Shown: positions 30,683-45,720 of the stretch, in pieces
Numbering within the stretch: position 1 is the first letter of the stretch
How the letters are laid out: each line of letters starts with the position of its first letter
NCBI RefSeq assembly: GCF_020990385.1
Contig: NZ_CP087598.1
Coordinates: forward strand, 2,175,001 to 2,239,000
Origin: Paracoccus sp. MA
GTDB taxonomy: Bacteria; Pseudomonadota; Alphaproteobacteria; Rhodobacterales; Rhodobacteraceae
DNA: 64,000 bases
Direction of reading: 5' to 3'
Translations under genes and position numbers: made by a program
The notes under the pieces: generated by a model
What the model was told of the DNA's origin: nothing
Database searches by the model: none
The model's input: only the letters and a program-made list of their open reading frames with translations

Positions 30683-31411
30683 TCATTCCCGCGTCTTGAA
30701 GCGCCAGCTCTCGTTGCCGGTCTCGACGATGTCACAGTGATGGGTCAGTCGGTCGAGGAGCGCCGTTGTCATCTTCGCGTCTCCGAAGACGGTCGGCCAT
30801 TCGCCGAAGTCGAGGTTCGTCGTCACGATGATCGAGGTGCGTTCGTAAAGGCGACTGATGAGGTGGAACAGGAGCTGGCCACCCGTCTGGGCGAACGGCA
30901 GATATCCCAACTCGTCGAGGATCAGGAAGTCGAGGCGGCACAGGAGATCCGCAGTGCGTCCCTGTCGGTCGGCGCGGGCTTCGGCGTCCAGCTTGTTCAC
31001 CAGGTCCACGACGTTGAAGAAGCGGCCGCGCTTGCCACGGCGGATGCAGGCCCGGGCGATGCTGACGGCAAGGTGGGATTTGCCGGTCCCGGTGCCGCCG
31101 ATGAGGACGACGTTACGCTGATGCTCGAGGAACTCTCCGGAGGCCAGATCGCGCACCAGCGTTTCGTTTACGGGCGTGTCTTCGAAGCTGAACTCGTCGA
31201 CTTCCTTGGCCAAGGGCAGCTTGGCGATGGTCATCTGGTATTTGATCGAGCGAGCTTGTTTCTCGCTGATCTCGGCGTTCAGCAGGTCGCCCACGATTTG
31301 CTGCGGTTCGTGCTGTCGCTTCACCGCCGTGGCGATGATCTCATCGTAGGCGGCCTTCATGCCGTAGAGCTTCAACTGGCCCATCGCGTCCAGCACCTGT
31401 GATCTTTCCAT
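30683..31411 (-). CDS. istB: IS21 helper ATPase IstB
   Basis: A 242-residue AAA+ ATPase of the DnaC/IstB type that remodels target DNA for the IstA transposase. Walker A is GGTGTGKSH, Walker B is [11 protein letters not shown], and sensor motif [11 protein letters not shown] follows. It is intact and of normal length. Its start overlaps the end of istA by 71 bases in another frame, which allows coupled translation. Confidence 0.95.
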
Positions 31412-32909
31412 GGCGGGGTCTCCTGAGGCTGTCGTAGCGTTTGCAGTCGGCCACGGGCTCGCAGGTCAGGCGCAACGCGTCCGGCGTGGCGATGGTCAAC
31501 GGAGGTGGTGGCTCGCGATGTCGGGCCAGGATGTTCAGAACGACCGATGCCGCCGGGGCGCCTTCGGTCAGGGCCTCGACGCAGGCAGCCTCGACGGCTT
31601 CCAGTCCATCCGTTGGGATCATGCTCAGGATCTGGACCATCTGACGGTCACCGTTCGGCACGCGCCCCAGCTTACGCTGGACGCGTCGTATCGCCGGCGG
31701 CAGTTCCCATTCCTTGAAGGGAGCGCCGTTTCGAAGGGCGCCGGGCTTGCGGGCCAGCACCGGGATGTAGTGCAGCGGGTCATAGATGGCCTTGTCGCGC
31801 CCGAAGGCGCGGTCGTGCCGGCCGACGATCTTGCCGTCCTGCCAGACCTCGACCCGCTCGGCATAGGCGCGGATCTCGACCGGACGGCCGACGGCGCGAC
31901 CATCGACCGAGTAGCGGTTCTTGTCGAACCTAACGAGGCAGGTCTTGGACACCGAGGCCGGCACGGCATGGAATCCGTCGAAAGGGCCGACGTAGGGCAC
32001 CAGGCTCGCCCGCTCATCCTGGAACACGTCCCAGATTGTCCGATCACGCAATTCCTGGTGCGGATGGGCCTTGGCCCAGGCAATACAGCGATCCTGAAGC
32101 CAGGCGTTGAGTTCCGCGTAGCTCTTGAAGCGCGGCCGCGGCACGAAGAACCGCCGCCGGACAACGCCAACCTGGTTCTCTACTTGTCCCTTCTCCCAGC
32201 CGGACGCGGGGGTGCAGGCGACGGGATCGACAAGGTAGTGTCCGCACATCTGCTGGAACCGGCGATTATACGCGCGGTCGCGGCCGACGAAGATCGTGTC
32301 CACCGCCGTCTTCATGTTGTCGTAGATCCCACGCGCACAGGCGCCGCCGAAGAAGGCAAAGGCCTTGTCATGGGCATCGAACACCATTTCCTGCGTCTCT
32401 CGCGGGTAGGCCCGGACGAACAGCATCCGGCTATGACAAAGCCGGACGTGAGCCACCTTCACCGTGGTGGTCACGCCGTCGATCAGAACGACCTCGTGAC
32501 TCCAGTCGAACTGGTAGGCTTCACCCGGATCGAAGCTCAGTGGCACATAGGCGGCGGCTGACGCTTCCTGCTCCGCCTGCGACCACGAAGCCGCATAGCG
32601 TCGGACCGCGTCGTAGCCGCCGTCATATCCGAGGGCCCTGAGCTCTTCGAAAATCCGGATGCGGGTCAGCCGCTCGCGCTTCGGCTTGCGCGCATTCGCC
32701 GCCAGCATCTCGTCGAGCTTGCCTTTCCAGGGACCGATCTTCGGCTGCGGTTGGACGGTTCGCTCGTAAGTCATCTCCGTTGCGCCGGACCGGATCACCT
32801 TCCGAACCGTGTTCCGCGATACCCGCAGCTCTCGGCAGATATGCTTGATCGACTTCTTGTCCTGGAAATACGCCCGGCGGATCTTCGCAATCGTCTCCAC
32901 AACCAGCAT
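31341..32909 (-). CDS. istA: IS21 transposase IstA
   Basis: A 522-residue DDE transposase. It begins with a helix-turn-helix ([20 protein letters not shown]), then the catalytic core: [18 protein letters not shown] and [10 protein letters not shown] provide the D, D and E. The C-terminal beta-barrel region is present ([20 protein letters not shown]). Apparently intact. The C-terminal 20 or so residues are encoded within the istB start region. Confidence 0.95.
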
Positions 32910-33021: not shown

Positions 33022-33244
33022 GGCATGGGCGCGCATTGGGCTCCGCTACGGCGTCATCGCACTCGCGATCCTGCTGTTCCTGCTTTCCCTGCGCCGCTCC
33101 GGCGAGCGCGCCGGCCGACTGACCGAGCAGCTCGAAACCATGGAGAAAACCTATGACGCCCAAAAGCGAATGCTCGAGGCAGCGGCGCGCCGTCCTCGTT
33201 CTCGCGACGATCTGGCTGAGCGGCTGCGCGACGGTCGGTTCTGA
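33022..33244 (+). pseudogene. Rz-like i-spanin, 5' end replaced by IS21
   Basis: The frame directly right of the IS encodes AWARIGLRYGVIALAILLFL then LSLRRSGERAGRLTEQLE and EAAARRPRSRDDLAERL: one N-terminal transmembrane helix followed by a coiled coil, the layout of phage Rz-type inner-membrane spanins. Its natural start is gone; the frame is open back into the IS end, so a chimeric protein could still be made. It overlaps the Rz1-like gene in another frame, the classical nested arrangement. Confidence 0.7.
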
Positions 33245-33401
33245 CGGTAGCGGGCCAGGGGCGTGTCCGCCGGTCGTCGAGTACAGTAGGAAGTTCCAGG
33301 CGCGAGCGGCAGGGGAGCTGGACCTCCTGCCGGAGGGCTCGGCGATCGCAGAGATGATGAGCGACTATGCGGTGTTGCGGGAACAGGCGCGGGTGTGCTG
33401 A
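33153..33401 (+). CDS. Rz1-like outer-membrane lipoprotein (o-spanin)
   Basis: An 82-residue protein with a basic N terminus, hydrophobic segment and lipobox (RRAVLVLATIWLSGCATVG), so the cysteine is probably lipidated. The remainder is short and includes CPPVVEYSRKFQARAAGELD. Its start lies 92 bases inside the Rz-like frame, matching Rz/Rz1 pairs of double-stranded-DNA phages, where the two proteins span the periplasm to fuse membranes at lysis. The remainder of the lysis cassette (endolysin, holin) is not seen here. Confidence 0.7.
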   Translation: MTPKSECSRQRRAVLVLATIWLSGCATVGSDGSGPGACPPVVEYSRKFQARAAGELDLLPEGSAIAEMMSDYAVLREQARVC

Positions 33402-33422
33402 TCCTCCGGCACTTGTCGCGGA

Positions 33423-34781
33423 TTACGCGTCGCGCCCGGCGCCGAACCTGGGGCTATCGGTCGGCAAGATGAGTGATGCCTCTAAGCCGGAGGTTGCGCC
33501 AGGTCGCGGCGATTTCAGAACGAGCGAGCTTCCGATCCGGTTGGCGATGGCGGCGACGATGGCGAGGCCAAGCCCGCTGCCATCGGTGCTTGCGTTCGCC
33601 CGTTCGAAACGTGCCGTCAGGCGGTCGAGCATCTCGCGCGGCACCACGGGACCATCGTTAGCGACAACGAGGCGGCCGTCCGCCGTCAGCGTCACCTCGA
33701 CTGCCAGATTCTCCGCCCCGTGACGGAGGGCGTTCTCCACAAGGTTCCGGCACAGGATGGCGAAGGCATCGGGGTCGATGTCCGACTGGACAGCCGCGTC
33801 GGGAAGAGTGAGCCCAATGCGGCCAGGCGCGGTCGCGCGTCCGAGATCGTCCACCACCACACGGGCGACCGCCCTCAGGTCGGCGCTCCGGTCCATCCGC
33901 AGCCGCCCGCCTTCGGCCCGCGCAAGCTGCATGAGGCGTTCGGAAAGCCGGGTCAGGCGCTTGAGCGTCGCCTCAATTTCGGCGGCACGCACTTCGGTGG
34001 CCGGCTCGTGCGTCTCCGCCCTCAGCCGCTGCGCCTGAGCGATTGCTCCGGCCAGCGGCGTTCTCAACTCGTGGGCCGCGTTCGCGGCAAAACTGCGCTC
34101 GGCCTCGAACGCCGCGCGCAAGCGGGCCAGAAGGCCGTTGAGCGTCTTGGCCAGTGGACCAATCTCCGTCGGCAGATCGCTGGCAGGAACCTCCGACAGG
34201 TCGCGGGCGCCGCGCGCCTCCAGCCGAGCACGGAACCGACGCAGCGGATCGAGGCTGAAGCGAACGGCAAGAATGATCGCCACCAGCGCGATCGGCAGCA
34301 CGATGAGCAGCGGCAGGCCGAGGCCCATCTGGATCTCCCGCGCAACCGACGCGCGATGGGCCAGCGGCTCGGCCACGGTGATCCGGATCGTGTCCTGAAG
34401 CGCTGCATCGCTGTAGAACCGGTGGGTGGCGGTCTGACGGAAACCGGGTCCGTCCCAAGGCGGGAACACGGCAGGGTCGGCCGCATGAGATTGCAGCAGG
34501 ATGCGCCCCTCGCCATCGCGCACGAGGTAGGTGAAGAACTCGTCGTGCTCCCGGATGGGCGCGAGCCGCTGCGTCACGCCCTGATCTTCGCGGCCCACGA
34601 TATCGGTCACCGCCAGCGGGAGGATGCGTTCCGCTGTCTCCTGCAGGGCGCTGTCAAAGACCTCGTCCAGCTCGCCCCGGACGATTACGGCCGTCACCGT
34701 CGCAGCGAGCAGCCACAGCACCGTCAGCGCCAGGCCGAGCGACAGGCCGAGTCGGCCCTGAAGGCTCGCGGGCCATCTCAT
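33423..34781 (-). CDS. Two-component sensor histidine kinase (QseC/PmrB-like)
   Basis: A 452-residue inner-membrane kinase. TM1 is at about 8-33 (LSLGLALTVLWLLAATVTAV), a periplasmic domain of about 130 residues follows, then TM2 (LGLPLLIVLPIALVAIILAV), HAMP-like linker, H-box NAAHELRTPLAG with the phospho-accepting histidine, N-box NLVENALRHG and G-box DGSGLGLAIV. Its ATG overlaps the response-regulator stop. The pair faces the PepSY/cytochrome genes across a shared 144-base gap, so those are probable targets. The signal is unknown. Confidence 0.92.
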   Translation of the reverse strand: MRWPASLQGRLGLSLGLALTVLWLLAATVTAVIVRGELDEVFDSALQETAERILPLAVTDIVGREDQGVTQRLAPIREHDEFFTYLVRDGEGRILLQSHAADPAVFPPWDGPGFRQTATHRFYSDAALQDTIRITVAEPLAHRASVAREIQMGLGLPLLIVLPIALVAIILAVRFSLDPLRRFRARLEARGARDLSEVPASDLPTEIGPLAKTLNGLLARLRAAFEAERSFAANAAHELRTPLAGAIAQAQRLRAETHEPATEVRAAEIEATLKRLTRLSERLMQLARAEGGRLRMDRSADLRAVARVVVDDLGRATAPGRIGLTLPDAAVQSDIDPDAFAILCRNLVENALRHGAENLAVEVTLTADGRLVVANDGPVVPREMLDRLTARFERANASTDGSGLGLAIVAAIANRIGSSLVLKSPRPGATSGLEASLILPTDSPRFGAGRDA

Positions 34782-35437
34782 GATTTGCCGAGCCTGTAGC
34801 CCATGCCGCGCTCGGTCTCGATGACCGAAGCCCCGAGCTTCTTGCGCAGGCGGCTCACATGGACCTCGATGGTGTTGCTCTCCACCTCCGCGTCGAAGGC
34901 GTAAAGCTTCTCCTCCAGCTGTGCCTTTGACAGCAGCTGACCGGGGCGCGCGAGAAAGGCTTCGAACAGCGCCCATTCCCTTGCGGTCAGTTGCACCGGC
35001 TTGCCGTCGCGGTGAACGCTGCGGGCGGCAAGATCGATTTCCAGCGGCCCGTGGGTGACGATGGGGTTCGGGTTGCCGCTGTAGCGTCGAGCGACAGACC
35101 CGATCCGCGCGGACAACTCAGCGAGATCGAAGGGCTTCACGAGATAATCGTCGGCGCCCGCGTTCAGCCCCTCGATCCGGTCCGACACCTGGTCGAGCGC
35201 GGTCAGGATGATGACCGGCGTCACGTCGCCCTGCGCGCGCAAGCCTTTGAGGAACCCGATCCCGCGACCGTCCGGCAGCATCAGGTCGAGCAGGATCAGG
35301 TCGTAAGACGTGGATTTCGCAGCGCCGCCGGCCGCATCGAGGCGCATCACCCAATCGACCGACTGCCCATCGGCCGTGATCTGGTCGCGCACCGCCGCGC
35401 CAAGCACCGTGTCGTCCTCGATCAGCAGGATGCGCAT
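34778..35437 (-). CDS. OmpR/PhoB-type response regulator
   Basis: A 219-residue regulator. The receiver domain has acidic pocket IEDD, phospho-acceptor Asp51 in LLDLMLPDG, and switch lysine in YLVKPFD. The C-terminal winged-helix domain has LTAREWALFEAFLARPGQLL and VESNTIEVHVSRLRKKLG, closest in flavour to QseB/PmrA. It is followed by its kinase with ATGA overlap. A 49-nt element repeated at two promoters in this cluster is a good candidate binding site. Confidence 0.93.
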   Translation of the reverse strand: MRILLIEDDTVLGAAVRDQITADGQSVDWVMRLDAAGGAAKSTSYDLILLDLMLPDGRGIGFLKGLRAQGDVTPVIILTALDQVSDRIEGLNAGADDYLVKPFDLAELSARIGSVARRYSGNPNPIVTHGPLEIDLAARSVHRDGKPVQLTAREWALFEAFLARPGQLLSKAQLEEKLYAFDAEVESNTIEVHVSRLRKKLGASVIETERGMGYRLGKS

Positions 35438-35481
35438 CCTCGTCCCCGTCCTCTTCCGATGACCCTCCATGATCCGTCTGG

Positions 35482-35530
35482 CTGACAAGAAGCTGAAGCG
35501 GGTGGCTGCGTCCCTTCAGGCTGCCGTCAG
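35482..35530 (+). promoter_or_regulatory. Bipartite cluster operator, copy A
   Basis: CTGACAAGAAGCTGAAGCGGG, then 13 bases, then TCAGGCTGCCGTCAG. The same two blocks with the same 13-base spacing recur at 36658 (18 of 21 and 12 of 15 positions identical). It lies between the divergent regulator and PepSY genes, about 50 bases before the latter. AAGCTGAAG and the later CTTCAG/CAGCTT give partial dyad character. Probably the response-regulator box. Confidence 0.7.
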
Positions 35531-35581
35531 CTTCGCCGCGCATGAATTTCGTCAAGATGGCCGCAGCGAGGAGTTTGGCCC

Positions 35582-35902
35582 ATGAAGAAGACATTGACAA
35601 TTCTCGGCTTTCTCGCGGTCTTTCCGGCCGGTGCCGCGCTGGCGGACGACGACTGCTTCGTGCCGATGGCCGACTGGCAGCCGCGCGACGCCGTCGCCCG
35701 GCTGGCCGAGGAGAACGGCTGGACGGTGCGCCGGATCAAGATCGACGACGGCTGCTACGAAATCGACGGCCGCGACGCCGAGGGGCGCCGGATCGAGGTG
35801 ACCGTTCATCCGGCGACGCTCCAGGTGATCGAGTTCGAATACGAGGACAAGGACGACGGCGATCGCCCCCGCCGGGATCGCGAAGCAGGCGACGATGACT
35901 GA
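35582..35902 (+). CDS. Small periplasmic PepSY-domain protein
   Basis: A 106-residue protein with a signal peptide (MKKTLTILGFLAVFPAGAALA), a PepSY fold (DAVARLAEENGWTVRRIKIDDG, CYEIDGRDAEGRRIEVTVHP) and an acidic tail (FEYEDKDDGDRPRRDREAGDDD). Two cysteines lie at DDDCFVP and DGCYE. The acidic tail could bind cations. It overlaps the cytochrome gene by 8 bases, and a bipartite operator lies upstream. PepSY proteins of this size often accompany QseBC-like systems and b561 cytochromes. Confidence 0.8.
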   Translation: MKKTLTILGFLAVFPAGAALADDDCFVPMADWQPRDAVARLAEENGWTVRRIKIDDGCYEIDGRDAEGRRIEVTVHPATLQVIEFEYEDKDDGDRPRRDREAGDDD

Positions 35903-36566
35903 CGCAATCTCACACCAGGCGCCAGAGATGAACACGGCGCCGAGCAGCAAGGTCCGTGTCTGGGATCCGCTGGTCCGGGTTTTCCATTGGGGTCTGGTCG
36001 CGGCCTTCGCGACCGCATGGCTGACTGCGGACGAGCTGCAACCTGTCCACGAGGTCGCAGGCTATACCGTCGCCGGACTTGTGGCCTTCCGGCTGGTCTG
36101 GGGCCTCATCGGCAGTCGCTACGCGCGCTTCGCCCAGTTCCTGAAAGGCCCCCGCGAGACGCTGGCCTATCTCGGGGACATGACCCGCGGACGCGAGCGG
36201 CGCCACCTCGGCCACAACCCGGCGGGCGCGGCGATGGTCGTGGCGCTGCTGGTCACGCTGTCCGGGACGGCTTTCACCGGCTGGCTCATGGAGGATGAGG
36301 CCCGTCTGGCGATACTTCCGTCCATGCCCGCAATTGTGGCGCTCGCCTGGGCCGACGACGACGGCGACGAGCGGGAATACGGCGGGCGGGGCGAGATCGA
36401 GGGACCGCTGAAGGAGGTCCACGAGACGCTCGCCAACCTGATGCTGCTGCTTGCCGCGCTGCATGTTGGCGGCGTCGTCCTAGCCTCCTTCAGGCACCAC
36501 GAGAACCTGGCGCGCGCCATGGTGACGGGCGACAAGCGCGGCGCCGGTCCCGGCGACATCGCCTGA
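35895..36566 (+). CDS. Cytochrome b561-type diheme membrane protein
   Basis: A 223-residue protein with about four transmembrane helices and conserved histidines in RVFHWGLVAAFATAW, VHEVAGYTVAG, VHETLANLMLLLAALHVGGV and FRHHEN that would ligate heme b. It carries electrons across or within the inner membrane, typically linking the quinone pool to a periplasmic partner. It is translationally coupled to the PepSY gene and ends at a terminator. Confidence 0.87.
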   Translation: MTDAISHQAPEMNTAPSSKVRVWDPLVRVFHWGLVAAFATAWLTADELQPVHEVAGYTVAGLVAFRLVWGLIGSRYARFAQFLKGPRETLAYLGDMTRGRERRHLGHNPAGAAMVVALLVTLSGTAFTGWLMEDEARLAILPSMPAIVALAWADDDGDEREYGGRGEIEGPLKEVHETLANLMLLLAALHVGGVVLASFRHHENLARAMVTGDKRGAGPGDIA

Positions 36567-36608
36567 CGGCACCTAACCCCAAGGCCGACCGTCCCTTCGG
36601 TCCCGCCT

Positions 36609-36637
36609 GGCCTCGCCCTCACGGGCGGGGCCTTTTT
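36609..36637 (+). terminator. Intrinsic terminator after cytochrome b561
   Basis: GGCCTCGCCC and GGGCGGGGCC form a 10-base-pair stem with a TCAC loop followed by TTTTT. It separates the PepSY-b561 unit from the Asp-repeat/DUF2271/ApbE unit, which then has its own operator copy. Confidence 0.85.
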
Positions 36638-36657
36638 CGTCCGAAGCCGCTCTCTTC

Positions 36658-36706
36658 CTGACGGCAAGCTGAAGCGGGAATCGCCGACGCGTCAGGAAGC
36701 CCTCAG
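36658..36706 (+). promoter_or_regulatory. Bipartite cluster operator, copy B
   Basis: CTGACGGCAAGCTGAAGCGGG, 13 bases, TCAGGAAGCCCTCAG; matches copy A at 35482 in both blocks and in spacing. It lies 46 bases before the Asp-repeat gene and after a terminator, as expected for an independently initiated but co-regulated operon. Confidence 0.7.
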
Positions 36707-36752
36707 GTCGTGTCTCCAGATTGTCCTCAGCAGATGACAAGGAGACCCTGCC

Positions 36753-37130
<378 letters not shown>

Positions 37131-37168
37131 ACCGCTCCGAAGTTCCTCTCCGAACAAGGATCCATACG

Positions 37169-37639
37169 ATGAAATCGCTTCTCGCCACGCTCGCGCTGAC
37201 CACGGCGCTGACGCTCCCCGGCCTCGCCATGGCGCGTCCGGTGACGCTCACCACGATCCTCAACAATTACGGCGGCGACGGGGCCTATCTCGCGCTCTAC
37301 GTCACCGACACCTCGGGCGCCTATGTCGGCAGTCTCTGGATGGCTGGCGGCAAGTCCAAGTACTACGAGCACCTCAGCGACTGGTACCGCGCCACCGGCG
37401 GCGACACCGCGCAGGTGAACGGCATCACCGGCGCCAGCGTCGGCGCGGGCCGCACGCTCGAGATCACGCTCGACCTGGCCGACGCGCTCTTCGACGCGGG
37501 CTACACGCTCCACATCGACGCGGCCGTCGAGGACATGCGCGACAGCCCGAACGAGGTGGCCGTCCCGCTCACGACCGACGGCGCCGGCACGCCGGTGCAG
37601 GGCCGCCGCTACATCGCCAGCTTCGCCTACGACATGTGA
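37169..37639 (+). CDS. DUF2271 periplasmic protein, candidate FMN carrier
   Basis: A 156-residue protein with a signal peptide (MKSLLATLALTTALTLPGLAMA) and a DUF2271-type beta-rich domain (SLWMAGGKSKYYEHLSDWYR, VPLTTDGAGTPVQGRRYIASF). Residues 85-94 read GITGASVGAG, which resembles the [S/T]GA[T/S] sequence to which ApbE attaches FMN in NqrC/RnfG-type proteins. With apbE two genes downstream, covalent flavin at Thr87 or Ser90 is a reasonable hypothesis. The following PepSY-reductase gene begins 12 bases after its stop. Confidence 0.8.
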   Translation: MKSLLATLALTTALTLPGLAMARPVTLTTILNNYGGDGAYLALYVTDTSGAYVGSLWMAGGKSKYYEHLSDWYRATGGDTAQVNGITGASVGAGRTLEITLDLADALFDAGYTLHIDAAVEDMRDSPNEVAVPLTTDGAGTPVQGRRYIASFAYDM

Positions 37640-37650
37640 GGAGCGGGGCC

Positions 37651-39858
37651 ATGATCCGTGCACTCCATCGCTGGCCGGGTCTTCTGGCCCTTGCGCTCGT
37701 CACCATCCTGAGTCTGAGCGGCGCGGCGCTGTCGGTCTTCCCAGCGGCCGAACGGCTTGCCGCACCGCAGGCGGAAGCCGGACTGACCGTCGCCGCCCTC
37801 GCGGACCGCATCCAGACGGTCTATCCGGGCGTCGAGCAGATCCGCCGATCACCCTCGGGCCGGATCACCGCCTACTGGTTCGACCAGGGCGCGCCGGGCG
37901 CTGCCGTGATTGACCCGGTGACCGGTGAGGGCGTGGCCTCGGCCGACCCGAACCAGGCCGAACGCTGGCTCACCAACCTGCACCGGTCGCTGTTCCTCGG
38001 GGACGGCGGGCGCATAGCCATGGCTGCAGGGGCTGCCGCGATGCTGATCCTCTCGCTCTCCGGTGCGGCGCTGGTCGCGCGGCGGACGGGCGGCTGGCGG
38101 CACTGGTTCGCGCGCCTGCGCGGTCCGCTCGCGGGCAGGCTGCACGTCGAGATCGCCCGGATCGCCGTCGTCGGCTTCGTTCTGTCTTCCACGACCGCCC
38201 TCTGGATGACGGCGTCGACCTTCGATCTCCTGCCGGATGGCAGCGCCATCCCGGCCATGCCGACCGAGGTCAGTGGAGCGACGGGGTTTGCGCCGGACCG
38301 AATGGCCACGCTGCAGCAGACGCCCGTCGCCGAGTTGCGCGAACTGAGCTTTCCCTATCCCGGCGACGCGACGGACGTGTTCACGCTCAAGACCGACCGG
38401 GGCACCGGCTATCTCGACCAGGGCGACGGAGACCTCCTGGCCTGGGCCGACCTCACGGGATGGGAGCGCGTCTCGGAGACCATCTACATGCTGCACACCG
38501 GACAGGGCGCGGCGACGCTCGGCCTGGTGCTCGGCCTCATGGCGCTCGGCGTGCCCGCGATGGGCGCGACCGGCGTGCTGATCTGGCTCGCCGGGCGGCG
38601 CGGTCGGCCGCGCATCCGAGGCAATCAGCCCGCGGGACGTGCCGAGACGATCCTGCTCGTCGGCAGCGAGGGCGGCAGCACCTGGGGATTTGCGGCCACG
38701 CTCCACACCGCACTGACGCAAGCCGGGCAGAAGGTACACACAGCACCGATGTCGGCCTTCGCGCCAGAACGCTACGCTACGGCCCAGCGGATCATCCTGC
38801 TCGCCGCAACCTATGGCGACGGCGCGGCGCCCGCCTCGGCGAAGGGCTTTCTCGAGCGGCTAAACGCTTCCGACAGGGCGCCGGACATTTCTCTGGCGGT
38901 GCTCGGCTTCGGCGACCGCAGCTTTCCGGCCTATTGCGCCTTCGCAAGGGACGTCGCGGCAGCGGCGCAGGCGAAGGGTTGGCCCGAGCTTCTGCCGCTC
39001 GACACAATCGACCGGCAATCGCCGCAGGATTTCGCGCGCTGGGGCCGGGCGCTCGGAGACGTGCTCGGCATTGCGCTCGAACTGACGCACCAGCCGGTCC
39101 AGCCGCAAACGACCACGCTGACCCTCGTCTCGCGGCGCGACTACGGCGCTGAGGTGCAGGCCCCGACGGCGATCCTCCGCTTCGCGTTTCCCCGCGTCTC
39201 GCTCGGGCAACGGCTGCTCGGGGGCGGGTTCGCACGGTTCCAGGCGGGTGACCTGATCGGCATTCTGCCCGAAGGCGGGACCGTCCCGCGGCTCTATTCG
39301 CTCGCCTCTGGGCGCCGCGACGGCTTCATCGAGATCGTGGTCAAGAAGCATCCCGGCGGCCTCTGCTCGGGTCAGCTCACAGCGCTGGAACCTGGCGACA
39401 CGGTGAGCGCCTTCTTGCGCCCCAACCCCGGTTTCCGTCCGGGGCGGAGCCGGGCGCCCCTGATCCTGATCGGCGCAGGGACCGGCATCGGGCCGCTAGC
39501 GGGCTTTGTGCGCGGCAATACGCGCCGCAGGCCGATCCACCTGTTCTTCGGCATGCGCCATCCCGACAGCGATTTCTTCTACGGCGAGGAGTTCCCCGGA
39601 TGGCAGGACGAAGGGCGTGTAAGCCGGCTGGTCACCGCCGTCTCGCGCGGGGCGCGTCCCCATTACGTCCAGGACGCGCTGCGCAGCGAGGCCACTCAGG
39701 TCGCAGAGCTCATCCGCAATGGCGCGCGCGTGATGGTCTGCGGCGGACGGGACATGGCCGCCGGCGTGGCCGAGGCGCTGGCCGAGATCCTCGCACCGGC
39801 CGGGCTGACGCCGGCGGTCCTGAAGGCGGAGGGGCGGTATGTCGAAGATGTCTACTGA
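37651..39858 (+). CDS. PepSY-flavodoxin-NADPH reductase transmembrane fusion
   Basis: A 735-residue protein. The N-terminal third is a PepSY-associated transmembrane unit with about four helices (ALALVTILSLSGAALSVF; MAAGAAAMLILSLSGAALVA; IAVVGFVLSSTTALWM; LGLVLGLMALGVPAMGATGV) and periplasmic loops. It is followed by a flavodoxin-like FMN domain (ILLVGSEGGSTWGFAATLH) and a ferredoxin-reductase domain with FAD motif PRLYSLAS and NADPH motif LILIGAGTGIGPLAGFVR, ending RYVEDVY. Electrons from cytosolic NADPH would pass FAD to FMN to the membrane unit. ATG 37651 has GAGGAG upstream; the stop overlaps apbE by 20 bases. Confidence 0.88.
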   Translation: MIRALHRWPGLLALALVTILSLSGAALSVFPAAERLAAPQAEAGLTVAALADRIQTVYPGVEQIRRSPSGRITAYWFDQGAPGAAVIDPVTGEGVASADPNQAERWLTNLHRSLFLGDGGRIAMAAGAAAMLILSLSGAALVARRTGGWRHWFARLRGPLAGRLHVEIARIAVVGFVLSSTTALWMTASTFDLLPDGSAIPAMPTEVSGATGFAPDRMATLQQTPVAELRELSFPYPGDATDVFTLKTDRGTGYLDQGDGDLLAWADLTGWERVSETIYMLHTGQGAATLGLVLGLMALGVPAMGATGVLIWLAGRRGRPRIRGNQPAGRAETILLVGSEGGSTWGFAATLHTALTQAGQKVHTAPMSAFAPERYATAQRIILLAATYGDGAAPASAKGFLERLNASDRAPDISLAVLGFGDRSFPAYCAFARDVAAAAQAKGWPELLPLDTIDRQSPQDFARWGRALGDVLGIALELTHQPVQPQTTTLTLVSRRDYGAEVQAPTAILRFAFPRVSLGQRLLGGGFARFQAGDLIGILPEGGTVPRLYSLASGRRDGFIEIVVKKHPGGLCSGQLTALEPGDTVSAFLRPNPGFRPGRSRAPLILIGAGTGIGPLAGFVRGNTRRRPIHLFFGMRHPDSDFFYGEEFPGWQDEGRVSRLVTAVSRGARPHYVQDALRSEATQVAELIRNGARVMVCGGRDMAAGVAEALAEILAPAGLTPAVLKAEGRYVEDVY

Positions 39859-40819
39859 GCTGACGAGGCACGCCCTGAATGGGGCGACCATGGGCACGCG
39901 CTGGTCGGCGCTGTTCTTCGCAGGGCCCGGTCTCGACACGGCGGCGATCCGCACGGCGCTGCAGGCGGCCGTGGACGAAGTGGACGGACAGATGTCGACC
40001 TGGAAGCCCGACAGCGGCCTGATGCGGCTCAACGCGGCGCCGGTGGGCGAATGGATCGCGCTTCCCGCGCGGCTCGCCGAGGTGCTGCGACTCGGCCTAA
40101 AGATCGGGCGCATATCCGGCGGCGCGTTCGACATCGGCATGGGTGACGCGGTGACGGCCTGGGGGTTCGGGCCGAAGACGGCCGCGCCCGAGGGCATCCG
40201 CGCCGCGATGAAAACCCCGCGCCGCCCGGCGGATCAGGCTCTGGAGTTCGAAGGCGACCGCATCTGCAAGGTCGCTCCCATAGCGCTGGATCTGAACGGC
40301 ATAGCCAAGGGCTACGGCGTGGACCGTTTGGCCGAAACCCTGCGCGATTACGGGATCGCCGACGCCCTCGTCGGGGTCGATGGCGAGATGCGCGCGATGG
40401 GTCTCCGGCCTGACGGCGAGGCCTGGAGCATTGCGGTCGAGGCGCCGGACGCGGAACGCCGGACGCCGCATTCGATCCTCGCGCTGCAGGATGCCGCCGT
40501 CGCCACCTCCGGCGATTATCGCCACTGGGTCGAGGTTCAGGGACGACGCCTGTCGCACACAATGGACCCGAGGCGCGGTGCGCCGCTGATCGCATCGCCG
40601 GCCTCCGTCACCGTCGTTGCCCGCAGCTGTGCCGAGGCCGATGCCTGGGCGACGGCGCTCATGGTGCTCGGTCTCGGCAAAGGGGCCGAACTCGCAAGAA
40701 AAGAAGGGCTCGACGCCCTGTTCCTCTTGCGCGAAGATTGCGGGAGCGTGAGGGGCGTGGGAGTCGGACGACTTTTTTCCGAAGAGCCAGCGGCGATTAC
40801 CCCTGCAGAGGGGAGATAG
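39839..40819 (+). CDS. apbE: FAD:protein FMN transferase (ApbE family), no visible signal peptide
   Basis: A 326-residue ApbE-family protein that would transfer FMN from FAD to a threonine or serine of a target protein. Family features: GATMGTRWSALF at the start, LDLNGIAKGYGVDRLAETL, the catalytic-region VGVDGEMRAMG, and SGDYRHWVE...LSHTMDPRRGAP. Unlike most bacterial ApbE proteins it has neither a signal peptide nor a lipobox, and the start (GGAGGGG before ATG 39839) leaves no room for one. The DUF2271 gene in this operon is the obvious candidate target. Confidence 0.88.
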   Translation: MSKMSTELTRHALNGATMGTRWSALFFAGPGLDTAAIRTALQAAVDEVDGQMSTWKPDSGLMRLNAAPVGEWIALPARLAEVLRLGLKIGRISGGAFDIGMGDAVTAWGFGPKTAAPEGIRAAMKTPRRPADQALEFEGDRICKVAPIALDLNGIAKGYGVDRLAETLRDYGIADALVGVDGEMRAMGLRPDGEAWSIAVEAPDAERRTPHSILALQDAAVATSGDYRHWVEVQGRRLSHTMDPRRGAPLIASPASVTVVARSCAEADAWATALMVLGLGKGAELARKEGLDALFLLREDCGSVRGVGVGRLFSEEPAAITPAEGR

Positions 40820-40824
40820 GCCGC

Positions 40825-42732
40825 ATGGAGACGACAAGGACTGACCGCTTCAAGACCGCTATCCTGCTCATTGCCGCGACCGGCCTGTTTGCGGGACTTG
40901 CGTTCTACTTTTCCGGCCGACCCAACGCTGCGAACCTGATCTGGATCGCCGGCGTCGTTCCAGCGCTCGCCGCGCTCGTGGTCGAGATCCTGCGCAGCCT
41001 GCGCTCCGGCGAGGTGGGCCTCGATATCGTCGCAGCGCTGTCGATGTCGGCGGCGCTCGTCTTCGGCGAGACCCTCGCCGCGGCGGTGGTCGCGGTGATG
41101 TATTCCGGCGGCACATTCCTCGAAGCCTTCGCCGAAGGCCGCGCCCGGCGCGAGATGCACGACCTCCTCTCCCGCGTGCCGCGGACCGCGACCCGGCACC
41201 GCAACGGCGGGCTGGAGGAGATCCCGCTCGACCACATCGCGCCCGGCGACCGCCTCCTGATACGTCAGGGCGACGTGGTGCCGGTGGACGGCACGGTGGC
41301 CTCGGAGACGGCCTTCGTCGACACCTCAGCGCTGACGGGCGAGTCCCTGCCAGTGCGCCTCGCCCACGGCGCCGAAGCCATGAGCGGCTCCACAAACGCA
41401 GGCGAGGCGTTCGATCTGACGGCGACGAGAGAAGCCAAGGACAGCACTTATGCCGGGATCGTCCGGCTGGTCGAGGAGGCGCAGGCCTCGAAGGCGCCGA
41501 TGTCGCGGCTGGCCGACCGCTGGTCGCTGGGCTTTCTCGCGGTCACGGTCAGCATCGCCTTCGCGGCCTGGTGGTTCACCGGCGATCCAATCCGGGCCGT
41601 CGCCGTGCTCGTTGTCGCCACGCCCTGTCCGCTGATCCTCGCCGTGCCGGTGGCGCTGGTGGCCGGGCTGTCGCGTGCCGCGCATTTCGGGGTGCTGATC
41701 AAGGGCGCGGGACCGCTCGAGACGATGGCGCGCATCCGAACGCTGATCCTCGACAAGACCGGCACGCTGACGGACGGCCGGCCGCAGATCGTCTCGATCG
41801 ATAGCCACGACGGGATGGCGGAGGACGACATACTGCGCCTCGCTGCAGCGCTCGACCAGGCGTCCAAGCACCCCGTGGCGCAGGCCATCGTTGCGGCCGC
41901 GAAGGCGCGCGGCTTCACGCTGCCGGTTCCGTCGGACGTGGCTGAGATCCCGGGTGAAGGCGTCGTGGGCCATGTCGAGGGCCGGAAGGTCATCGTCGGT
42001 GGCGACGGCTTCGTGGCCGCGCGCGTGGGGCGCCAGCCGGGCGATCATTCCGCCATTGCCGCCGGTTCGGTTCTCGTCGCCGTCGCCGTCGACGGGCAAA
42101 TGGCAGGGCACCTCGTGATGTCCGATCCGCTGCGCGAGGGTGCGGGCGCCATGCTCGACGGTCTGCGCCGCGAGGGCATCGCGCGTATCCTGCTCGCCAC
42201 CGGCGACCGCGCGGACGTGGCTGAGCGCGTGACCGAGGGGCTTGGCCTCGACGGGCTGCGCGCCGGGCTCACGCCCGACCAGAAGGTTCTGCTGGTTCTC
42301 TCCGAGCGCAAGCGCGGGCCCGTGATGATGGTGGGCGACGGCGTCAACGACGCGCCGGCTCTCGCAGCGGCCGATGTGGGTGTCGCGATGGGCGCACGCG
42401 GAGCCGCTGCATCGGCGGAGGCGGCAGACGTCGTGCTGCTCGTCGACCGTATCGACCGGCTCGGGCCGGGGATCGAGATTGCGCGCGGTGCGCGCCGCAT
42501 CGCTGTCGAAAGCGTTGTCGCCGGAATCGGCCTGTCGGTCATGGGCATGATCGCCGCGGCTTTCGGCTATCTCACTCCGGTGCAGGGGGCGCTCCTGCAG
42601 GAGATCATCGACGTCGCCGTGATCCTGAACGCCCTGCGCGCGCTGCGCATCGCGCCCCATGAGCCCACTATCCCGAATCCAAAGGCTGTCTCCTCCGGGC
42701 AGGCCGACATCGCGCAAGGAGCCACGCCATGA
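40825..42732 (+). CDS. P1B-type heavy-metal-transporting ATPase with TPC motif
   Basis: A 635-residue ATPase without N-terminal HMA domains. Phosphorylation site DKTGTLT (Asp310), TGES loop, SKHPVAQ nucleotide-binding motif and GDGVNDAPAL hinge are all present. The metal-binding membrane motif is ATPCPLIL (Thr266-Pro-Cys268) rather than CPC, which puts it outside the classical copper/zinc groups; TPC-type members have uncertain substrates. ATG 40825 lies 5 bases after the apbE stop. It presumably exports or imports a transition metal related to the cluster function. Confidence 0.88.
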   Translation: METTRTDRFKTAILLIAATGLFAGLAFYFSGRPNAANLIWIAGVVPALAALVVEILRSLRSGEVGLDIVAALSMSAALVFGETLAAAVVAVMYSGGTFLEAFAEGRARREMHDLLSRVPRTATRHRNGGLEEIPLDHIAPGDRLLIRQGDVVPVDGTVASETAFVDTSALTGESLPVRLAHGAEAMSGSTNAGEAFDLTATREAKDSTYAGIVRLVEEAQASKAPMSRLADRWSLGFLAVTVSIAFAAWWFTGDPIRAVAVLVVATPCPLILAVPVALVAGLSRAAHFGVLIKGAGPLETMARIRTLILDKTGTLTDGRPQIVSIDSHDGMAEDDILRLAAALDQASKHPVAQAIVAAAKARGFTLPVPSDVAEIPGEGVVGHVEGRKVIVGGDGFVAARVGRQPGDHSAIAAGSVLVAVAVDGQMAGHLVMSDPLREGAGAMLDGLRREGIARILLATGDRADVAERVTEGLGLDGLRAGLTPDQKVLLVLSERKRGPVMMVGDGVNDAPALAAADVGVAMGARGAAASAEAADVVLLVDRIDRLGPGIEIARGARRIAVESVVAGIGLSVMGMIAAAFGYLTPVQGALLQEIIDVAVILNALRALRIAPHEPTIPNPKAVSSGQADIAQGATP

Positions 42733-43430
42733 GCCGCCTCTCGCATTCCGAAATCCACATGGTGCATCGCATCGGCTGGCTGCGGGCCGCCGTTCTCGGA
42801 GCCAACGACGGACTGGTGTCGACTGCGAGCCTCGTTGTCGGCGTCGCCGCGGCAGGATCGGGAAAGCCGGAGGTCCTGATCGCGGGGCTGGCTGGCCTCG
42901 TGGCCGGTGCGATGTCCATGGCGGCAGGAGAATACGTCTCGGTCAGTTCCCAGACCGATGCGGAACAAGCCGATCTTGCCCGCGAGACCCGCGAGCTGGC
43001 GGAAACGCCTGAGGCAGAGCTCGAGGAGCTCACCCGGATCTACGTTGACCGGGGGCTGGATCGCGACCTGGCGGAGAAGGTGGCCCACCAGCTGACCGAA
43101 CGCGACGCGCTCGGATCGCATGCCCGCGACGAACTCGGCATCTCCGAGACCGTGACGGCACGCCCGATCCAGGCGGCGCTGGTCTCGGCTCTAACATTCG
43201 CCCTGGGTGCGGTCGTTCCGCTGATCGTCGTTCTATTGGCGCCCGAAACGTCGATCGCGCTGTTCGTGGCGGCATCGACGATCGTCGGCCTTGCGGTCCT
43301 CGGCGGTCTGGGCGCCTCCGCCGGCGGCGCTGGTGTCGTTCGGGGCGCCGCGCGGGTCACCCTCTGGGGCGCTCTCGCAATGGCTGCGACAGCAGCGGTG
43401 GGAGCGGTGTTTGGCGTCACGGTTGGGTAG
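42729..43430 (+). CDS. VIT1/CCC1-family metal (Fe/Mn) transporter
   Basis: A 233-residue protein with five hydrophobic helices. It has the family signature WLRAAVLGANDGLVSTASLV near the N terminus, GAMSMAAGEYVSVSSQ, and a cytosolic acidic helical insert (AETPEAELEELTRIYVDRGL) that in relatives binds metal. VIT proteins move ferrous iron or manganese out of the cytosol. It overlaps the ATPase gene by 4 bases and is the last gene of the operon, before a terminator. Confidence 0.9.
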   Translation: MSRLSHSEIHMVHRIGWLRAAVLGANDGLVSTASLVVGVAAAGSGKPEVLIAGLAGLVAGAMSMAAGEYVSVSSQTDAEQADLARETRELAETPEAELEELTRIYVDRGLDRDLAEKVAHQLTERDALGSHARDELGISETVTARPIQAALVSALTFALGAVVPLIVVLLAPETSIALFVAASTIVGLAVLGGLGASAGGAGVVRGAARVTLWGALAMAATAAVGAVFGVTVG

Positions 43431-43512
43431 CAATTATTGGGTTTCTGGGTGGAGAAGGTTGGATTTGAGGCCCATCCCCTCCGCCACTTGCCCTCGCGAA
43501 AGCGTTCTCCCG

Positions 43513-43534
43513 ATCCGGCTGCGGCCGGATTTTT
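43513..43534 (+). terminator. Intrinsic terminator of the flavin/metal operon
   Basis: ATCCGGC-TGCG-GCCGGAT forms a 7-base-pair stem followed by TTTTT, 83 bases after the VIT stop. Confidence 0.8.
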
Positions 43535-43636
43535 CCGTTGTTTTCGAGGGTTATGCGGGAGGGGCTCTTAACCGGCCAACGCCCCAACGGGCGCGCACGC
43601 GTTCTCTCCGGGCCGATATTCTCCGGACCTGTTAAC

Positions 43637-44938: not shown

Positions 44939-45298
44939 TCATGTTGACAAATGGCGGAGCCAGAGCCTGATGCAGGCGACGTCGACGAAGCCAAGGAAGC
45001 TTTCGGCGGTTTTGTCGTAGCGGGTTGCAAGGCGGCGGCTATTTTTCAGCTTGTTGAAGCAGCGCTCGACCATGTTGCGCAGGGTGTAGATGGTCATGTC
45101 GACAGCCTTGCGCACCCTTCGGTTCCTTCGCATCGGTATCATGGGCAGGGCGTTGCGGCTCTCGATGTCTTCCCGAATTTTATCAGAGTCATAGCCCCTG
45201 TCGGCGACCAGAACTGCTGGTTGCGGCAGGTTGTCGGCCATCACCATATCATAGCCGGTGTAGTCGGAATCCTGCCCCGGCGTGATCTCGGTCCTCAT
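44939..45298 (-). CDS. IS427-like transposase, second frame (orfB)
   Basis: A 119-residue C-terminal half with ADRGYDSDKIRE and the DDE-type YxxR-like segment RNMVERCFNKLKNSRRLATR, typical of IS5-family catalytic ends. Its stop codon lies within the terminal inverted repeat. It is most likely expressed as a fusion with the first frame through a -1 shift at A-AAA-GGG-GG (about 45393-45405 on the minus strand), after which the frame reads GTPKEALGRSRGGFSTKIHL into orfB. Confidence 0.88.
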   Translation of the reverse strand: MRTEITPGQDSDYTGYDMVMADNLPQPAVLVADRGYDSDKIREDIESRNALPMIPMRRNRRVRKAVDMTIYTLRNMVERCFNKLKNSRRLATRYDKTAESFLGFVDVACIRLWLRHLST

Positions 45299-45720
45299 CG
45301 GGAGGCCTGCGCCGTTGACGCGGAGATGGATCTTGGTCGAGAAGCCACCTCTCGAACGGCCAAGAGCCTCTTTCGGAGTCCCCCTTTTGCGCCCGCCGCA
45401 TGATGATGGGCGCGGATCACAGTGCTATCAACCATCTGGAGCTTGTCTGGCGCGATCCCAGCGTGGTTCAGCGCATCCAGGATATCCTCCCACAGTCCCG
45501 CCAAAGTCCAGCGGCGGAACTGACGGTAGACCGAGGACCACTTGCCAAACTCTTCGGGCAGATCGCGCCATGGCGCACCAGTCCTTGCGATCCAGAATAT
45601 ACCATTCAGAACAAGACGATGGTCCGCAGGTTTCCGCCCGTTAGGGTGCCGGACGGCACGAATGAAGCCCTCGAAGAAGGTCCACTCATCGTCGGATATC
45701 AGGTTGCGTGCCAAGTTCAT
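45295..45720 (-). CDS. IS427-like transposase, first frame (orfA)
   Basis: A 141-residue N-terminal half: LISDDEWTFFEGFIRAVRHP, NGIFWIARTGAPWRDLPEEF and MVDSTVIRAHHHAAGAKGG, all standard for the IS427 group. The last 30 residues diverge because the conserved frame continues in orfB after a slippery A-AAA-GGG-GG tract. The two-frame structure with a programmed shift is known for this group, so this is not necessarily decay. Confidence 0.88.
   Translation of the reverse strand: MNLARNLISDDEWTFFEGFIRAVRHPNGRKPADHRLVLNGIFWIARTGAPWRDLPEEFGKWSSVYRQFRRWTLAGLWEDILDALNHAGIAPDKLQMVDSTVIRAHHHAAGAKGGLRKRLLAVREVASRPRSISASTAQASR

Follow-up and report, generated by a model that had tools for sequence, protein, structure and literature searches.

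A presumed mobile gene cassette of Paracoccus sp. MA joins a candidate two-component switch and a predicted transmembrane flavin/heme electron path to putative metal transporters

Gene clusters that combine a PepSY_TM protein carrying an NAD-binding domain with DUF2271 and ApbE, in some cases also with VIT1, have been published as PepSY-like flavinylation clusters, and the main text of that study counts PepSY-like flavin clusters, most of them with DUF2271, in thousands of genomes (Meheust 2021, eLife, PMC8238504). PepSY two-component modules, in which a small PepSY gene lies beside a response regulator and a sensor kinase with an ExxE motif, are likewise in print, as excerpts on DbfQRS (PMC12714742) and BqsRS (PMC12666569) indicate. 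Here, we describe a presumed mobile cassette of ten genes at positions 33423-43430 of a 64,000-nucleotide stretch of contig NZ_CP087598.1 of Paracoccus sp. MA (in the following, the window), whose genome comprises 4.47 Mb on three contigs. A PepSY-like flavinylation cluster is defined by a PepSY_TM gene (PF03929/PF16357) clustered with ApbE, FMN-bind, DUF3570 or DUF2271, and with PF03929, PF10029 and PF02424 above cut-off, the window falls under this definition. Compared with the clusters presented in the main text of PMC8238504, where the terms "P-type ATPase" and "b561" do not occur, the cassette adds a two-component pair with a DNA repeat, a PepSY_2 gene, a gene for a b561-type or ferric-reductase-like protein, a tail-bearing protein and a P1B ATPase, and its ApbE has no signal-like start. 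Like the DbfQRS and BqsRS modules, the cassette has a small PepSY gene next to regulator and kinase, but its two-component pair diverges from an operon with redox and metal-transport genes.

An initial annotation of the locus had proposed an undescribed system for electron export under two-component control, linked to metal handling. This interpretation is supported with respect to the electron path, the single regulon and the link to metals. The locus is not wholly undescribed, since the PepSY/DUF2271/ApbE core, in part with VIT, and the PepSY two-component modules have already been published; new are the presumed mobile cassette, the shared repeat, the pump slot, the forms of the tail protein, the exchange of b561 and the signal-less ApbE. 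No published account of the ten-gene cassette was found in the literature searched, which left out most subscription papers. For DUF2271 together with a P-type ATPase, this literature yielded only work on Zur in Caulobacter, in the accessible part of which the two lie in separate loci. The ferrosome (fez; FezA/B/C; PMC11334425) was considered by its description in excerpts only.

The ten genes with their close spacing, as initially annotated, were recovered by open reading frames (ORFs) and matches to Pfam and NCBIfam (Table 1). Kinase and regulator lie on the minus strand, and the divergent plus strand encodes PepSY_2, b561, the Asp-repeat protein, DUF2271, the PepSY-reductase fusion (PepSY-FNR), ApbE, the ATPase and VIT. 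PepSY_2 and b561 overlap by 8 bp, PepSY-FNR and ApbE by 20 bp and ATPase and VIT by 4 bp, and ApbE and the ATPase are separated by 5 bp. The kinase is likely to start at the ATG at 34781, overlapping the end of the regulator gene, and a longer ORF from 34976 is probably not the gene; for PepSY-FNR, an alternative GTG start is possible at 37636. Relatives' stretches fetched from other genomes carry L numbers in the following, and G000 denotes the window's own genome. The survey covers the best 80 of at least 570 confirmed loci, with at least 70% identity to the query, and is biased towards near kin. Since a similar gene order recurs in these 80 loci and the cassette DNA matches relatives, whereas the flanks of the window do not, a chance assembly of the ten genes is ruled out.

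Nucleotide comparison of window positions 25000-50000 with seven relatives revealed matches for the cassette DNA only, at 88-96% identity and in differing surroundings. The match is in one piece in L034 (33022-43557), L035 (33022-43402), L036 (33044-43630) and L038 (33406-43439) and in two pieces in L012; in L032 (Mesorhizobium) and L033 (Labrenzia) it covers 33299-35906 and 36653-43477, and a ferric-reductase-like gene replaces b561. A plasmid collection contained 99 records with a relative of PepSY-FNR (E ≤ 1e-40), 70 of which are typed as conjugative and 38 of which belong to Pseudosulfitobacter, and the cassette was located near repC in two plasmids, one from Celeribacter and one from Paracoccus. 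Overall, many marine and soil bacteria carry the cassette, on plasmids as well as on chromosomes. Within the genus, DUF2271 had a match in 9 of 37 genomes (own genome included); three of the ten places found, including the window, harbor the ATPase with a TPC motif (TPC ATPase) and VIT, and one place is cut by a contig end. From the cassette-limited DNA match, the plasmid copies and the patchy distribution within the genus we infer that the ten-gene set probably moves as a unit by horizontal transfer. Heavy metal detoxification genes are named on roseobacter plasmids, without detail, in excerpts of PMC5513947. By eye, an IS21-like istA/istB pair was recognised left of the cassette (30683-32909, minus strand) and IS5-like transposase pieces right of it (44939-45720, minus strand); an ORF at about 1662000 of G000:C2 has the same first 60 residues as the IS21-like ORF of the window.

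Among the relatives, 73 of the 75 loci with enough upstream DNA contain kinase and regulator. The slot of the membrane electron carrier is occupied in these 75 loci by b561 (40 loci, 31 plus 9 of a second type) or by a ferric-reductase-like flavin adenine dinucleotide (FAD)/NAD protein (16 loci; PF01794 was found in two of the replacements), and 19 loci have nothing recognised by the query panel. The slot directly after ApbE was assessed in 72 loci with at least 2.8 kb of DNA past this gene. Here, the TPC pump was found in 31 loci, followed by VIT in 26 and alone in 5; an ATPase with SPC/HEGGT motifs, which we take to be P1B-4, occupies the slot in 3 loci, VIT without ATPase occurs in 5 and neither in 33. 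Because ATPase and VIT follow ApbE in 26 of the 72 testable loci, their position beside the flavin genes is not a peculiarity of this strain, which the initial annotation had named as a finding that would speak against a single system. If the whole fetched stretch is considered and cut-off P1B-4 kin are included, 50 of the 72 loci harbor VIT or an ATPase of the TPC or SPC type. A renewed search of 32 loci without a slot ATPase revealed ATPase-like pieces within about 220 bp past ApbE in 12; L056 and L071 are merely cut by a contig end, and the other ten (L044, L051, L062, L070, L076, L098, L101, L103, L104 and L110) resemble remnants, apparently decayed copies, some of them weak (single pieces with E values up to 2e-4). 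Based on these remnants, the pump may be old in the slot and often lost since. A thirteenth match, in L067, is a copy on the opposite strand and hence no remnant. On a quick tree of PepSY-FNR, in which two rows are mislabelled (L036 and L059), the TPC label requires at least 13 changes, 5 of them forced by well-supported branches.

Beyond the close relatives, the arrangement of the transporters differs further in Rhizobium leguminosarum (VIT about 1.3 kb past ApbE on the other strand), in Shinella (VIT and a P1B-4-like ATPase upstream of the core), in a Salmonella plasmid stretch (VIT1/CCC1 directly after PepSY-FNR, with no ApbE found there) and in Cupriavidus, in which a TPC ATPase with a hemerythrin domain lies one small gene from the kinase. 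In L027, L082-L084, L087 and L089 (loci of Shinella, Kaistia, Brucella tritici and Rhizobium), a MgtC/DUF4010-type gene separates the core from a VIT/P1B-4-like pair or, alternatively, from a cut-off ATPase. Of the 35 PepSY-FNR places in 196 genomes of the order, 10 lie within 15 kb of the ATPase, 14 near VIT and 15 near either, compared to about 0.2 each for ATPase and VIT expected from uniform placement. Since VIT and metal-ATPase genes thus occur near PepSY-FNR beyond chance placement, the proposed link to metals is supported.

The strongest evidence for a common regulon of kinase, redox genes and transporters is a direct repeat with the consensus CTGAC-N6-CTGAAG, two copies of which are located on opposite strands in the divergent intergenic region and a third upstream of the second gene block (Table 1). 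Of 70 divergent intergenic regions of related loci, 63 contain the pattern SCTGA-N6-SCTGA on one strand or the other (mean of 0.1 in 200 letter shuffles). Upstream of the second block, a box on the gene's strand was detected in 59 of 68 loci, in 57 of which it starts 92-97 bp before the assigned start. Because both promoters have the same candidate repeat, the genes are likely to form one regulon, in line with the initial annotation. The longer repeat pattern matches the window's genome exactly at 8 sites, of which 3 lie in the cassette, and a reversed control matches it at 1. Nothing is claimed for a regulon extending to other genes: the surroundings of four of the five exact matches elsewhere were viewed (not C2:385674), and two of these four matches resemble the consensus, one inside an apparent type I modification gene (by eye) and the other, a good copy at 5102 of L149, some 180 bp ahead of a gene that looks CBS-like by eye.

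The kinase contains an ExxE motif (E37-x-x-E40) past its first hydrophobic stretch as well as R77-x-H79-[DE]-E81, and the residues are conserved in 74 rows (E37 95%, E40 88%, R77 96%, H79 96%, E81 99%). BqsS is characterised as a kinase stimulated by Fe(II). An ExxE site binds Fe(II) in BqsS according to excerpts of PMC12666569, and by analogy the motif of the kinase could be a candidate Fe(II) site.

PepSY-FNR combines a PepSY_TM half with a reductase half that consists of flavodoxin and FAD/NADPH (reduced nicotinamide adenine dinucleotide phosphate) domains of the cytochrome P450 reductase type, i.e. an NADPH diflavin reductase. In the former, H6, H111 and H282 are conserved in all 81 rows and H165 in 80 of 81, and these four histidines are predicted ligands for two hemes. 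The heme half had no sequence match in the PDB, so that identity to FoxB was not obtained by sequence; Foldseek gave no significant E-value, and the second aligner alone ranked FoxB first. Compared with the siderophore reductase FoxB (7ABW; 17% identity), the cassette protein is fused to its own NADPH diflavin reductase and is encoded beside a flavin carrier. Because a diflavin-reductase half is joined to a FoxB-like half with four conserved histidines, the transmembrane NADPH/heme/flavin electron path predicted in the initial annotation is supported. DUF2271 contains the flavinylation motif TGAS at residues 87-90 (37427-37438), and [ST]GA[ST] is found in all 80 relatives and the window protein. 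An extra flavinylation site in PepSY-FNR, SGATG at residues 208-212, was dropped for lack of conservation, since its A is found in 6 of 81 rows. The N-terminus of DUF2271 resembles a Sec substrate (by eye). For ApbE, no signal-peptide-like start was detected, either by N-terminal hydropathy (above 2.0 in 0 of 80 loci) or by eye in seven more. Two further ApbE genes are present in the own genome.

The ATPase carries TPCPLI with its T at position 266 and, starting at residue 592, QEIID, and neither a hemerythrin nor an HMA domain was found in it by the Pfam and NCBIfam search. It is 54% identical, over 607 aligned positions, to the ATPase of Sinorhizobium meliloti pSymA, which we take to be the P1B-5 pump Nia, and TPCPLI is common to both. 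A C-terminal hemerythrin domain, which only some P1B-5 members possess, is present in the pSymA and Cupriavidus relatives (L028, L029). As close kin of the pSymA ATPase with TPC in the fourth transmembrane segment, presumably the mark of P1B-5, the window ATPase is predicted to belong to this class. In VIT, residues D27, M64, E86, E89, E97 and E100 align with the same residues of the solved VIT1, for which we assume numbering and metal-site role. While this Asp, Met and four Glu align with VIT1 (6IU3), the cassette VIT is bacterial and part of a presumed two-component regulon. Excerpts of a review list PfeT, FrvA, CtpD, PmtA, Nia (there under P1B4) and the VIT-like MbfA among the bacterial iron efflux classes (PMC7762939). 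Because of the kinship to the pSymA pump, the retained metal residues of VIT and these efflux classes, the best reading is that ATPase and VIT may export an Fe(II)-like metal. A second VIT gene (G000:C1:919667-920341, L153) is 56% identical, and no other cassette gene was matched in the surrounding 12 kb.

In 68 of the 80 loci, the protein encoded just before DUF2271 has a C-terminal 27-residue tail with the consensus NPAPAGTVAPPQNGLFGNGAPPQVQVN (NGLF each 99%), and in the window this tail forms the last 27 residues of the Asp-repeat protein (37047-37127). The tail is strongly conserved, yet has no Pfam name according to the Pfam search. Its body is a PepSY_2 domain in 22 of the 68 proteins and acidic, mostly Asp-rich, in 46, whose longest Asp runs range from 3 to 24 (median 9). 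A tail search in a large protein set yielded 633 of 709 candidates at E ≤ 0.01, and proteins with and without PepSY_2 are both among the best 120 listed. The Asp-repeat protein of the initial annotation is present as an ORF, and we now regard it as one form of a tail-bearing protein whose two forms replace each other. We infer a single functional slot filled by either of two acidic bodies, with a tail that might serve in docking.

Table 1 Features of the cassette and its candidate regulatory boxes (window positions; aa, amino acids).
Feature	Position	Strand	Basis or remark
Presumed mobile cassette, largest extent (union over relatives) of DNA common with other genomes	33022..43630		nucleotide comparison
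Sensor histidine kinase, 452 aa, 2CSK_N sensor domain	33423..34781	-	QseC/PmrB-like, below equivalog cut-offs
OmpR-family response regulator	34778..35437	-	PmrA/QseB-like, below equivalog cut-offs
Candidate response-regulator box GCTGACAAGAAGCTGAAG, direct repeat, 11-bp period	35481..35498	+	repeat search
Second candidate box, facing regulator/kinase genes	35514..35531	-	repeat search
Small PepSY_2 protein, 106 aa, signal-like start (by eye)	35582..35902	+	PF13670, E 5.6e-28
Cytochrome b561-type membrane protein	35895..36566	+	PF01292
Third candidate box CCTGACGGCAAGCTGAAG, starts 96 bp before second gene block	36657..36674	+	repeat search
Asp-repeat protein, 125 aa	36753..37130	+	ORF, no Pfam match
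DUF2271 flavin carrier, 156 aa	37169..37639	+	PF10029; contains GITGASVGAG
PepSY_TM-flavodoxin-FAD/NADPH reductase fusion, 735 aa	37651..39858	+	PF03929, NAD-binding domain
ApbE flavin mononucleotide (FMN) transferase, 326 aa, no hydrophobic N-terminus	39839..40819	+	PF02424
P1B metal ATPase, 635 aa, TPC motif	40825..42732	+	Pfam/NCBIfam, motifs
VIT family iron/manganese carrier, 233 aa	42729..43430	+	PF01988, E 1.3e-67

We tentatively regard the locus as a mobile cassette switched by a two-component system in answer to extracytoplasmic metal stress, most likely by ferrous iron, i.e. as an export and detoxification regulon with NADPH-driven periplasmic reduction, a reading that is plausible without being firmly established. 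The kinase, which the small PepSY_2 protein probably modulates, would activate the regulator, which would bind the CTGAC-N6-CTGAAG boxes and switch on both gene blocks. ATPase and VIT would then move Fe(II), perhaps also Mn, Co or Ni, out of the cytoplasm, while PepSY-FNR would pass NADPH electrons via FAD, FMN and two b hemes to the flavinylated periplasmic DUF2271, with b561 or the ferric-reductase-like protein as a second electron path. The electrons could keep periplasmic iron reduced or re-dissolve ferric iron, and the Asp-rich or PepSY_2 tail protein might hold the metal near the redox carriers. The more specific version, in which Fe(II) export is coupled to powered periplasmic reduction in a mobile iron detoxification system, a private two-component switch co-expresses the NADPH-to-flavin electron exporter, an interchangeable P1B-4/P1B-5 pump and VIT, and the acidic tail protein acts as a periplasmic metal relay docking via its 27-residue tail, is possible, though rather doubtful.

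Several findings weigh against the detoxification reading. In many loci the transporters are missing: directly after ApbE, 33 of the 72 contain neither ATPase nor VIT, and in 22 of the 72 no VIT, TPC or SPC ATPase is present within the fetched stretch. In the 196 genomes of the order, 21 of 34 TPC ATPase places are near neither partner. A phylum-wide sample of 299 genomes contained 9 PepSY-FNR places, and apart from G000 only one relative has the ATPase right beside this gene. Among 11 further core stretches, VIT is present in two (L157 and L164; one of them has a 59-residue ATPase piece between ApbE and VIT), and three also lack kinase and regulator. The strict repeat occurs in 8 of 13 more distant loci and is missing in L016, L018, L023, L028 and L166. 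Moreover, a signal-less ApbE fits poorly with a Sec-exported flavin carrier, and ExxE may be common in QseC-like sensors. The Fe(II)-sensing hint from this motif stays suggestive only, because a reporter for DbfS, the Vibrio orthologue of BqsS, did not respond to iron according to excerpts of PMC12714742.

Finally, PepSY/VIT clusters have been read as iron uptake by Meheust et al., in whose proposal the flavin/heme module reduces periplasmic ferric iron and VIT imports Fe(II); the main text reports VIT1 in 167 PepSY-like flavinylation clusters and repression of PepSY clusters by Fur in Shewanella and Caulobacter (PMC8238504). The FoxB-like half of PepSY-FNR fits such reductive uptake as well. 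However, neither a TonB-receptor nor a Feo-type Pfam match was found among the ten window proteins, nor were such genes annotated in several relatives' stretches, among them the Celeribacter and Paracoccus plasmids, P1B ATPases are established exporters, and the presence of the candidate repeat in both promoters suggests control by the two-component pair, although no search aimed at Fur or Irr sites was made; in addition, the VIT-like MbfA exports iron (PMC7762939, excerpts), so that we consider uptake unlikely here. The same machine could also confer tolerance to Ni, Co, Mn or Cu, with the electrons reducing Cu(II) or another oxidised metal. This is in line with the broad specificity of P1B-4 pumps, the title of the S. 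meliloti Nia paper, which names Ni and Fe, and ATPases near several core loci of the same genus that are 35-37% identical to the window's (class not checked). Against it, we take TPC, which the cassette ATPase has in place of the CPC of Cu(I) pumps, to disfavor copper, and VIT carriers are known for iron and manganese. Although copper reductase activity is conceivable for one PepSY_TM protein (PMC13038864), another metal appears improbable.

Ferrous iron detoxification has also to be set against a module of general use in periplasmic redox or envelope stress, to which a metal-resistance plasmid would have contributed ATPase and VIT as passengers. Cores without both genes after ApbE and the repeated changes of the TPC label on the tree would agree with this view, as would DbfQRS, which answers envelope integrity (PMC12714742, excerpts). 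However, where present, ATPase and VIT keep a nearly constant spacing past ApbE across genera, the ATPase pieces in the slot of ten further loci point to an older set with losses, and a P1B-4-like pump can occupy the same slot, which makes mere passengers quite improbable.

If the joint detoxification reading is true, it would, for the form described here at least, reverse the prevailing view that PepSY-DUF2271-VIT clusters serve uptake, and a redox module thought to aid iron uptake may here aid iron disposal. PepSY-like flavin clusters have little tested function despite their thousands of genomes, and the locus offers several ways to approach them: its DNA repeat is defined, its kinase carries a candidate metal site, its transporters give a hint of the metal, parts of it are swappable, and it encodes a conserved tail without a Pfam name. 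For conjugative plasmids of marine bacteria, the cassette represents a concrete cargo.

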